Below, piece by piece: positions 33,101 to 35,776 of a stretch of 64,000 nt of DNA. Source of the stretch: Synechocystis sp. PCC 6714. Lineage in GTDB: Bacteria; Cyanobacteriota; Cyanobacteriia; Cyanobacteriales; Microcystaceae. Below the pieces are notes generated by a model. It was not told the DNA's origin, made no database searches, and saw nothing but the letters and a program-made list of their open reading frames with translations. The position numbers and the translations under genes were made by a program. The DNA lies in NCBI RefSeq assembly GCF_000478825.2, contig NZ_CP007542.1:682001-746000 (forward strand). The letters run 5' to 3'. Numbering within the stretch: position 1 is the first letter of the stretch; the number at the start of each line of letters is the position of its first letter.

Positions 33101-33444
33101 TGGTTAAAGATTTGATCGATCTCGGTTTTAAAGTGGTGGCTACCTCCGGTACCCAAAAAGTGTTGGAAGACCATGGCATCGAAGGGGTAGAAGTAATCCT
33201 CAAGCTCCACGAAGGCCGCCCTCACATCATCGACTGGATTAAAAACGGCTGGATTCAATTTATTATCAATACTCCCAGTGGGGAGGAGTCCCAGTTAGAT
33301 GGCCGCACCATCCGCCGGGCCGCCTTGGATTATAAGTTACCAATTATCACCACGATCGCCGGAGGAAAAGCCACTGTGGCCGCTATCCGTAGTTTGCAGG
33401 AGCATCCTTTGGACGTGAAAGCATTGCAGGACTATCTTGGCTAA
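30199..33444 (+). CDS. carB: Carbamoyl-phosphate synthase large subunit
   Basis: Makes carbamoyl phosphate from bicarbonate, ammonia (from CarA) and two ATP for arginine and pyrimidines. The roughly 1081-residue protein has the duplicated ATP-grasp structure: the first half starts [22 protein letters not shown] and the second [22 protein letters not shown], each followed by an MVNSNPET-like motif, and a C-terminal MGS-like allosteric domain beginning about [18 protein letters not shown] 30199 places [10 protein letters not shown] at the N-terminus as in the family; the 30127 start adds unrelated residues. The reverse transcriptase gene begins 64 bp downstream. Confidence 0.95.
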
Positions 33445-33465
33445 TTTGTTATGGTTGGGACATTC

Positions 33466-33487
33466 TAAGCTGATTAAGCCTAGCTTA
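33466..33487 (+). promoter_or_regulatory. Inverted repeat in the leader of the reverse transcriptase gene
   Basis: TAAGCT (33466-33471) and AGCTTA (33482-33487) form a perfect 6-bp stem with a 10-base loop, 22 bp before the RT start. No T-run follows, so it is not a clear carB terminator. It may be an operator or a structured leader. Confidence 0.35.
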
Positions 33488-33508
33488 TCCCATACAACAG
33501 AATAAAAA

Positions 33509-35068
33509 ATGACTTTAACAAGTGATTCAATTCATTGGGCAATTAACTTTTTATATCGTCATTCCGATGGTGATCTTTTTCCGAAAATTTTGGAAATGGA
33601 TGCCGTTTATAATATGGCGGATGAATTTGTAAAATATGTTGAGAATCAAAATTTAGATTTAGATCATTTTAAACCTGGTTCTTGTCGTAGATTTATTGTT
33701 CCTAAAGATGAATTGGCATACCGCCAAGCTACACAATTAGATCCACAAGATTCAATTATTCTTTCTGCGTTAATCTATCAATATGGTCAAGGAATTGAAG
33801 ATCGTAGATTAACAAAAGAAAAGGTATTTAGCTATAGATTTAAACCAGATTCTCAATCAGGCTTTTATGATAGTCAAACCTCCTGGAACCAATTCTGGAC
33901 AAGCGCACACGAGCTAAGTAATGATTTTGATACAGTTTTATATTGTGATATTGCTGATTTTTATAATCAAATTTATCATCATACTGTAGAAAATCAATTA
34001 ATTGCGTCAGGTTTTTCAGATCAAGAAAAAAAATGGATAATTAATTTAATAGGATCAACAACAGCAAAAGTATCTCGTGGAATACCTATTGGCCCTCACG
34101 CTTTACATTTAATTGCAGAAAGTACCATGATTCCTATTGATAACTGTTTGGTTTCTAAAGGAATTAACTTCATTCGTTTTGCCGATGATATCATTGTTTT
34201 TTGTCAATCCAGAAATTCTGCTAAACAATTAGCCTATTCCATTGCATCAACACTAGACAAACAACAAAGATTAACACTTCAAAAGCATAAAACCAGAATA
34301 TATAATTCTGAAGAATTTGAAAAGCTCTGTTTATCTATGATTGAAGACAGACCAATTTCCTCGGATGAAGATAGGATATTAAAAGTTATAAGGAAATATT
34401 CTGATGGTAATCCTTATCTTGCAATTTCTTTCAATCAAATTAATGACGAGGATTGGCTATCCATTTCTGATGAAATAATTACAAAGATCATTAAAGAGTA
34501 TCTTGATAAAGACCAAGTGGATTATATTCGTCTTCGATGGTTTTATCGGAGATTAACACAAATAGGTCATCCTGGTGCCGTAGATATTTCACTACAAGAA
34601 ATTGAGAACTTAAGTCCTTGCCTTGCCAATATATGTGTGTACTTTACTTCTGTGCAATCTATTGAACAGGATAAATGGATTCAAATTGGAGAAAGATTAT
34701 TATCTCTCTTAAATTCTGATGAAATTAAGGAAAATGAATATCTAAAACTTTCTCTTTTAAGTCTTTTTACTAAAAACGAATATATTAATCACTTCTCAAA
34801 ATTAACTGAACAATACGCATCGAGTGACCCATTTGTGAGAAGAGAAATTCTACTGGCTGCGAAACAAAATTATGCTTTTGATTGGCTTCGAGATTACAAA
34901 GAAAATTATCAATCTATGGACCCTTGGCAAAAAAATGCTTACTTGTATGCCATTTCTGGTTTCCCACAAGATGAAAAAGAGTATTTTATAAAAAATGTAT
35001 GTACCTTGATCAGACCTTTTGAAAAAGTTTTAGCTAAATGGGCAAAGAAAAAGAATAATTCTTGTTAA
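33509..35068 (+). CDS. Stand-alone reverse transcriptase of the UG/Abi (defence) type
   Basis: A 519-residue RNA-directed DNA polymerase homologue. The N-terminus has the GDLFPKILE block (21-29) and a VPK...R...LDPQD segment (64-81). The polymerase core follows: motif A CDIADFYNQIYHH with Asp147, motif B SRGIPIGPHALHLIAE (189-204), motif C FADD with Asp226/Asp227 (Phe-Ala-Asp-Asp instead of YADD), and LQKHKT (257-262). Residues 300-519 are alpha-helical without known motifs, like the HEAT-like C-termini of Abi-type RTs. There is no group II intron maturase domain and no retron signature. The gene is AT-rich against both neighbours and free of HIP1, suggesting transfer. Related UG/Abi RTs give phage resistance; this role is inference here. 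Confidence 0.88.
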   Translation: MTLTSDSIHWAINFLYRHSDGDLFPKILEMDAVYNMADEFVKYVENQNLDLDHFKPGSCRRFIVPKDELAYRQATQLDPQDSIILSALIYQYGQGIEDRRLTKEKVFSYRFKPDSQSGFYDSQTSWNQFWTSAHELSNDFDTVLYCDIADFYNQIYHHTVENQLIASGFSDQEKKWIINLIGSTTAKVSRGIPIGPHALHLIAESTMIPIDNCLVSKGINFIRFADDIIVFCQSRNSAKQLAYSIASTLDKQQRLTLQKHKTRIYNSEEFEKLCLSMIEDRPISSDEDRILKVIRKYSDGNPYLAISFNQINDEDWLSISDEIITKIIKEYLDKDQVDYIRLRWFYRRLTQIGHPGAVDISLQEIENLSPCLANICVYFTSVQSIEQDKWIQIGERLLSLLNSDEIKENEYLKLSLLSLFTKNEYINHFSKLTEQYASSDPFVRREILLAAKQNYAFDWLRDYKENYQSMDPWQKNAYLYAISGFPQDEKEYFIKNVCTLIRPFEKVLAKWAKKKNNSC

Positions 35069-35169
35069 AAATGTTTTTTTGATTTGAATAGCATAATCAG
35101 TAATTCCGCAAGCCATGTTAGCGTAGGGAAACTGAAATTTACCACTACTTATCATTGAGGAAAACTTAA

Positions 35170-35388
35170 GTGAAAGCCGAACTAACCGCAATCATTGAAG
35201 CCGCTGAAGAAGGGGGATATTGGGCAATTTGTCCGGAAATTCCTGGAGCCAACGGCCAAGGTGACACCATAGCAGAGGCAAAAGCCAGCTTAAAAAGTGC
35301 TATTCAACTGATTGTCGAAGACCGCCTGGAGGATATTCGTCGAGGGTTAACCAAAGAGGCTATTGAAGAAACGATTCTAATTCCATGA
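35170..35388 (+). CDS. hicB: HicB-type antitoxin
   Basis: A 72-residue HicB antitoxin of the short form, with the partial RNase H-like fold: LTAIIEAAEEGGYWAICPEIPGANGQGDTIAEA followed by a helix AKASLKSAIQLIVEDRLED. No separate HTH or ribbon-helix-helix DNA-binding domain is present. Translation starts at GTG 35170 after a GAGG ribosome site. Its stop overlaps the start of hicA (ATGA), the usual coupling of such pairs. The gene order antitoxin then toxin is the reverse of the classic hicA-hicB order but is common in cyanobacteria. Confidence 0.85.
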   Translation: MKAELTAIIEAAEEGGYWAICPEIPGANGQGDTIAEAKASLKSAIQLIVEDRLEDIRRGLTKEAIEETILIP

Positions 35389-35564
35389 AACGTAAAGAAT
35401 TAGAGAAAAAATTACGACAAGCAGGTTGTTATCTTAAGCGAGAAGGTTCTTCCCACTCTCTTTGGATTAATCCTCAAACTGGAATTATTGAAGCTGTCCC
35501 TAGGCATACAGAAATTAAAGAATTTTTAGCTCAGAAAATACTCAAAAATTTGAATGCGGAATAG
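35385..35564 (+). CDS. hicA: HicA-type mRNA interferase toxin
   Basis: Read directly from the sequence: 59 codons from ATG 35385 to TAG 35562-35564, too short for ordinary ORF lists. The product starts MKRKELEKKLRQAGCYLKRE and contains GSSHSLWIN, in which His24 is the expected catalytic histidine of the double-stranded-RNA-binding-like HicA fold, then VPRHTEIKEFLAQKILK. HicA cleaves mRNA and tmRNA and is held in check by HicB, encoded immediately upstream with a 4-base overlap. The pair looks intact. Confidence 0.87.
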   Translation: MKRKELEKKLRQAGCYLKREGSSHSLWINPQTGIIEAVPRHTEIKEFLAQKILKNLNAE

Positions 35565-35776
35565 TCTTCATCATTTAGATTTAGAACAAAGCAACCATTT
35601 TTTGTTAGATTCCAAAATCTGGTGGAAGTATTGCGACAATGGAATAAGCGGTGTAAGGGTTCTGGCCTCTTTTTGCCAGAGAATCATTCCCCCACTAGTT
35701 TCTCGTCAACCATTGAGGGTTTAATGGGTAATAGAGGGTTAATGTTGCCTTCCTGCCCAGTTCTTCCCTTGGTCCC

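Follow-up and report, generated by a model that had tools for sequence, protein, structure and literature searches.

The window analysed here, a 64,000-nucleotide stretch of the Synechocystis sp. PCC 6714 genome, contains a reverse transcriptase (RT) gene that begins 64 nt beyond the end of carB (33444) and is followed after 101 nt, on the same strand, by a gene pair for a HicB-like antitoxin and a HicA toxin (35170-35564; Table 1). Downstream of hicBA lie a PsbP-family gene and then an opposite-strand glycosyltransferase and sucrose-phosphate phosphatase domain gene. The first-pass annotation had described a stand-alone RT of the UG/Abi lineage next to carB and had proposed it as a candidate undescribed defence system. 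carB is indeed its neighbour, on the upstream side, and the core RT motifs A, B and C lie at the positions given there; the hicBA pair did not feature in that description.

Table 1. Features of the RT locus (positions in the window)
Feature	Position	Strand	Remarks
UG7 (DRT8-type) RT gene	33509..35068	+	Intact ORF, 519 aa, ATG start
Motif A region, D147-I-A-D150-F	33947..33961	+	D147 and D150 in 74/74 alignment rows
Motif B, SRGIPIGPHALHLIAE, residues 189-204	34073..34120	+	No counterpart to the Gln of the QG in the DRT2 control
Motif C, FADD, residues 224-227	34178..34189	+	DD in 74/74; position 224 is Y or F
Tyr303 codon, candidate protein-priming residue	34415..34417	+	Y in 72/74; predicted loop
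C-terminal helical domain, about residues 301-519	34409..35065	+	High-pLDDT predicted helices; class 1 UG/Abi RTs matched by Foldseek over the whole chain
HicB-like antitoxin neighbour	35170..35388	+	HicB_lk_antitox 26.1 bits, just below the cut-off of 27; phrog_497 HicB-like
HicA toxin neighbour	35385..35564	+	HicA_toxin 41.3 bits, cut-off 27
Strain-specific stretch (RT and hicBA), carB to PsbP-family gene	33452..35659	.	Nucleotide homology to relatives breaks off

Pfam RVT_1 matches the protein with 56.4 bits (cut-off 29.6). Conservation was counted in a 74-row alignment of relatives, which includes the RT of the window and excludes L013, L067, L084 and the broken copies. D147, D150, G191, G195, R223, D226, D227 and K261 are invariant in all 74 rows, and the RT of the window retains all 21 columns that are invariant across this alignment. 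The N-terminal block reported earlier is real and reads D20-x-D22-x-F24-P25 (D20 in 74, D22 in 70, F24 in 71 and P25 in 72 of the 74 rows). The Phe of FADD, which had been singled out as a point of interest, proved to be ordinary, as this position is F in 24 rows and Y in 50. Motif B of the window RT is GIPIGP, and position 194 is Gln in 0/74 rows.

Assignment of the reverse transcriptase to UG7

The PADLOC model Drt8 (PDLC03783) matches the window RT end to end (residues 3-515) with 534.5 bits, about 400 bits above the next-best UG group, RT_UG21 (136 bits); the best PADLOC Drt4 and Drt6 models reach only about 70 bits. Drt8 matches all 74 alignment rows (best E 2.2e-176), as does RT_UG21 more weakly (best E 1.5e-61), and no NCBIfam model reaches its cut-off on the window RT. 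We take Drt8 to be UG7, from the order of PADLOC accessions, in which UG models are seemingly numbered alphabetically and Drt8 occupies the place expected for UG7. NP_442332.1 is presumably a protein of Synechocystis PCC 6803 and, on that account, probably represents the window RT gene or its ortholog. The 2021 myRT paper moved NP_442332.1 from UG3 to UG7 and gave HicB as a co-occurring domain (PMC8934634, in excerpt). In a tree consisting of the 74 Drt8-matching RTs only, the window RT falls inside a four-row clade (100/99) with copies from Pseudanabaena, Nostoc and Richelia.

The profile search against UG/Abi models gives a clear assignment to Drt8 (UG7). The earlier description as a stand-alone RT of the UG/Abi lineage and of defence type holds. 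The suggestion of an undescribed or unassignable group was wrong, given the margin of 534.5 over 136 bits and the published association of UG7 with a HicB neighbour (PMC8934634). The group and the defence label of this RT are already known, and the gene does not in itself constitute a new system.

At equivalog level the protein does not qualify as a group II intron RT (TIGR04416 gives it 57 bits, where 300 would be needed), and Rfam yielded no match between 28000 and 41000. The retron model, with 40 bits, stays far below its cut-off of 235, and there is no long repeat pair at the RT gene, as far as Rfam and a general repeat search can reveal msr/msd RNA or template and variable repeats. The source genome encodes a second RT of defence type (L002 1207-2856; C1, near 539675), for which PADLOC ranks Drt4 first (623 bits) and Drt6 second (559 bits).

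Distribution and surroundings of the gene

The RT gene has a GC content of 31.2%, compared with 49.1% for the window; when the window is cut into 241 overlapping stretches of equal length, only one has a value as low. No homolog of the RT protein and no DNA match to hicBA were found in the four other Synechocystis genomes compared, two of which (G045 and G047) contain weak matches to RTs of other kinds. The gene is therefore not part of the core genome, and presence at one site in all strains with core-like composition, which the first-pass annotation had named as evidence against its reading, was not seen. Nucleotide homology to the relatives breaks off close to the carB end, at 33440-33451, and picks up again at the PsbP gene, at 35660 (G046), 35691 (G044), 35824 (G047) or 35864 (G045). 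Of the five genomes of the genus, only the source genome has carB close to the PsbP-family gene; because they lie apart in all four relatives, the site (window 33444-35700) marks a rearrangement junction, as opposed to a simple insertion.

Of 386 cyanobacterial genomes, 6 contain a full-length Drt8 match (>500 bits), the source genome counted. At E <= 0.001 the model matches 172 of the 386, nearly all much more weakly, and these weak matches are probably other RTs. Relatives were found with a seven-sequence alignment as query, and the best 80 of 213 confirmed relatives from genome contigs were kept; the window RT as a single-sequence query retrieved no loci from viral or genome contigs. The rows of the tree span 11 phyla, and the phylum labels require 22 changes (minimum 10; mean of shuffles 44.2), which indicates phylum signal together with mixing. 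Viral contigs contain only seven distant relatives (25-30% identity) and phage records one partial match; plasmid records of Rhizobium leguminosarum contain three full-length relatives at 56% identity. With its low GC, its absence from relatives in the genus and its patchy occurrence in cyanobacteria, the RT gene looks horizontally acquired.

An ANME-1 archaeon carries a UG7 RT with 45% identity on an archaeal contig (L072), followed by what appears by eye to be a long inverted repeat. In G188, a 126-aa frame (L023) preserves the C-terminal part of a UG7 RT as a relic and resembles, by eye, the copy at L015. In Lysobacter telluris (L064 1657-3192), the RT is probably an integron gene cassette, since two similar attC-like sites flank it on both sides. 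Integron carriage as a general trait of UG7 was rejected, as a relaxed attC scan gave p <= 0.03 at 10 of 80 loci, little above the chance expectation for 160 tests; at the window RT this relaxed scan detected no attC-like sites.

Neighbouring genes and flanking DNA

The neighbourhoods of 80 UG7 loci (833 ORFs within about 4 kb) contain no cluster that recurs at more than six loci, and the cluster that reaches this number consists, by eye, of generic ABC ATPases. Related RTs have 144 proteins encoded within 700 bp of them. In a scan of 133 of these proteins (10 of the 11 left out are very long), among the 25 commonest families listed no PADLOC family occurs more than four times and no Pfam family more than three. 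In the absence of a recurrent partner family, UG7 looks like a single-gene system. Some relatives lie beside defence-like genes (HerA, SIR2-like, PD-Lambda-3, PDC-S02 and PDC-S57), as expected for genes of defence islands. The window itself was rejected as a defence island: its 45 other large ORFs gave five weak PADLOC family matches, the best at 5.8e-10. In three cyanobacteria (L071, L073 and L074), the UG7 RT follows, at a distance of about 140-160 bp, a gene that belongs to one cluster in all three. This gene probably encodes alanyl-tRNA synthetase, based on one match to Pfam tRNA-synt_2c in L071, the only one of the three scanned. At L014, a related UG7 copy lies beside a pair that resembles Phd/PIN by eye.

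An alternative is that the RT belongs to a multi-gene DRT8 system, in which a PD-(D/E)XK nuclease, or an effector such as Cap17, is encoded elsewhere or has been lost. Excerpted literature ascribes a PD-(D/E)XK domain to DRT8 (PMC12596737) and tabulates Cap17 with it (PMC10952713). By Pfam, however, neither PD-(D/E)XK nor Cap17 was detected in the window RT or its scanned neighbours (2 + 9 genes), although profiles easily miss PD-(D/E)XK folds. The 133 scanned neighbours of relatives match 149 Pfam families; the 25 listed include a single PD-(D/E)XK family (YhcG, L090). We regard a multi-gene system as unlikely and, because the PD-(D/E)XK part was not seen, we class the gene as a UG7 RT rather than as a complete DRT8 system in the sense of PMC12596737.

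A second alternative, in which the RT would be a class-2-like enzyme that copies a noncoding RNA (ncRNA) encoded inside its own gene or at another genomic site, draws on the requirement of DRT2, DRT3 and DRT9 for such RNAs (PMC12596737, in excerpt). Its bearing on UG7 was assessed by blastn on 400 nt on each side of the gene, with 75 UG7 loci and, as control, seven DRT2 genes; L080, L084, L089, L091 and L108 were dropped from the UG7 set, which from the outset did not contain L102 and L105, both truncated by contig ends. All 10 DRT2 pairs with at least 64% protein identity have about 300-380 nt of upstream sequence in common, and three pairs share downstream DNA too. At 51-57% identity, 4 of 5 DRT2 pairs share 27-42 nt, and at 42-45% none of six does, so that the test fails at such distances. 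Among UG7 pairs, a flank match was found in 5 of 7 at 85% identity or above and in 3 of 61 at 65-85% (two through the same upstream gene, one through a 55-nt downstream stretch). At 55-65%, where the control works, there was none in 308 pairs (400 nt on each side), and at 45-55% and 30-45% there were 2 in 355 and 1 in 1200, respectively. The adjacent conserved ncRNA that marks class 2 (DRT2 and DRT9) was thus not seen within 400 nt on either side of UG7 genes. The test spans only these 400 nt per side and would miss an RNA encoded within the ORF or at a distance. Against it also stand the lack of an Rfam match near the gene, the narrow gaps to carB and hicB, and a predicted fold closer to class 1 than to DRT9 (see below). 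We consider an ncRNA-templated enzyme quite unlikely.

The RT and HicBA might be imagined as one retron-like unit in which the RT or its DNA restrains the HicA toxin. The genes adjoin on the same strand, 101 bp apart, both are absent from the four other genomes of the genus, and a HicB neighbour is listed for NP_442332.1 (PMC8934634, in excerpt), an RT that may be the same gene. However, HicA is already paired with HicB, and among the 833 neighbour ORFs of the 80 UG7 loci the window's hicBA proteins match only their own copies. Adjacency of this kind is also cheap, since Synechocystis 6803 has 69 type II toxin-antitoxin loci, with hicA among the commonest (PMC4963859, in excerpt). The HicB-like neighbour is probably independent of the RT, and a joint unit is improbable. 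A passenger without present function would find support in the broken relatives (L080, L089 and L091) and the C-terminal relic in G188, but the window copy is intact with every invariant column kept, and this is the least credible reading.

Predicted fold, proposed mechanism and known systems

AlphaFold2, run on the 74-row alignment, gave a confident model (pLDDT 94.9, pTM 0.93) in which the chain past residue 300 is predicted to form consecutive helices. The first-pass annotation had noted a helical C-terminus with no recognised domain and proposed a search for HEAT-like repeats. The region is indeed predicted to be all-helical and has no Pfam domain; the HEAT- or alpha-Rep-like layout is a reading of the helix order. 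Foldseek ranked DRT6 (9wy8; E 5.9e-13, TMq 0.60) first, followed by UG15 (9l9s), DRT4 (9vdo), Abi-P2 (7r08), AbiA (8oz7) and AbiK (7z0z), with group II intron RTs from rank 19 and the ncRNA-dependent DRT9 first at rank 26. Superpositions on class 1 structures are loose (whole-chain TMq 0.42-0.60, rmsd 7-16 A). In a sequence-profile comparison with the PDB, Abi-P2 comes first, followed by UG15/DRT4 and DRT6. In the model, the window RT has the combination that defines class 1 UG/Abi RTs, an RT with an alpha-helical repeat C-terminus, and UG7 is placed by resemblance with class 1, on the basis of the Foldseek ranking and a motif B without Gln.

Class 1 RTs have HEAT-like repeats, and studied members need no nucleic acid template for DNA synthesis (PMC13174585), which is in part protein-primed (PMC13174585, PMC13275509, PMC9508834; all in excerpt). 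Antiphage activity has been reported for DRT8 in general, while its mechanism is listed as unresolved in extracts of two 2026 reviews (PMC13213688, PMC13314766); no mechanistic study of UG7 was found in the literature searched, whose coverage leaves out many journals. From its family membership, its patchy distribution and the defence-like genes beside some relatives, we infer that the window RT is a defence gene. We hold it to be reasonably probable that it is an acquired single-gene UG7 (DRT8-type) RT, a class-1-type template-free, protein-primed polymerase that acts by abortive infection.

The enzyme probably primes untemplated DNA on a tyrosine of its own. In AbiK and Abi-P2, which are template-free and protein-primed, the priming Tyr lies in the N-terminal fingers (PMC9508834, in excerpt). 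This residue lacks a conserved counterpart in UG7, where only Ser7, of the S, T and Y residues at positions 1-60 of the window RT, reaches 70% conservation, so that the choice of a UG7 priming residue is a guess by conservation. Conserved hydroxyl residues elsewhere in the protein include Tyr303 (72/74), Tyr378 (73/74), Tyr156 (71/74), Thr75 (71/74), Thr262 (73/74), Ser108 (68/74), Ser189 (68/74) and Tyr109 (65/74). Tyr156 is common to Abi-P2 and UG15 (IYxHs) and probably structural. The first candidate would be Tyr303, which lies ahead of the helical domain, in the loop that the model predicts between helices 285-298 and 313-317.

In the proposed mechanism, the trigger would be infection, or a phage factor that stabilises the RT product, as reported for DRT4 (PMC13213688, PMC13314766; in excerpt). 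An RT oligomer would then make untemplated or protein-directed DNA, starting on a hydroxyl residue of the RT, with Tyr303 as best candidate and Tyr378 and Tyr109 as alternatives. The helical C-terminus would stand in for a template and hold the growing strand, and the DNA product or the bound enzyme would halt growth of the infected cell. More tentatively, UG7 might constitute a single-gene template-free branch that primes on a family-specific residue, the linker Tyr303, and not on an N-terminal Tyr as in AbiK, perhaps with a Drt3b-like protein-dictated sequence; we consider this possible, though doubtful. The alignment, the model and the flank test narrow the hypothesis for UG7 to a single-gene, ncRNA-free, class-1-type polymerase with named candidate residues.

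Among known systems, the window RT shares with the UG7 RTs (PADLOC Drt8) a full-length profile match, all motifs, length and the helical C-terminus, and it differs from DRT8 as described in excerpts of PMC12596737, which includes a PD-(D/E)XK part. DRT2 is, like UG7, a UG defence RT, but its motif B reads GIPQGSP (control L165) where the window RT has GIPIGP, and it is preceded by about 300 nt of conserved sequence, which UG7 lacks in its 400-nt flanks. Abi-P2, AbiK and AbiA have a fold similar to that of the window RT, Abi-P2 being closest by sequence profile, and differ, in the case of AbiK and Abi-P2, in their N-terminal priming Tyr. The nearest solved folds are those of DRT6 (9wy8) and DRT4/UG15 (9l9s, 9vdo), at 13-16% identity in structural alignments; motif B of DRT4 is likewise GxPxGP without Gln, and these enzymes join an RT to a helical domain, as the window RT is predicted to do.
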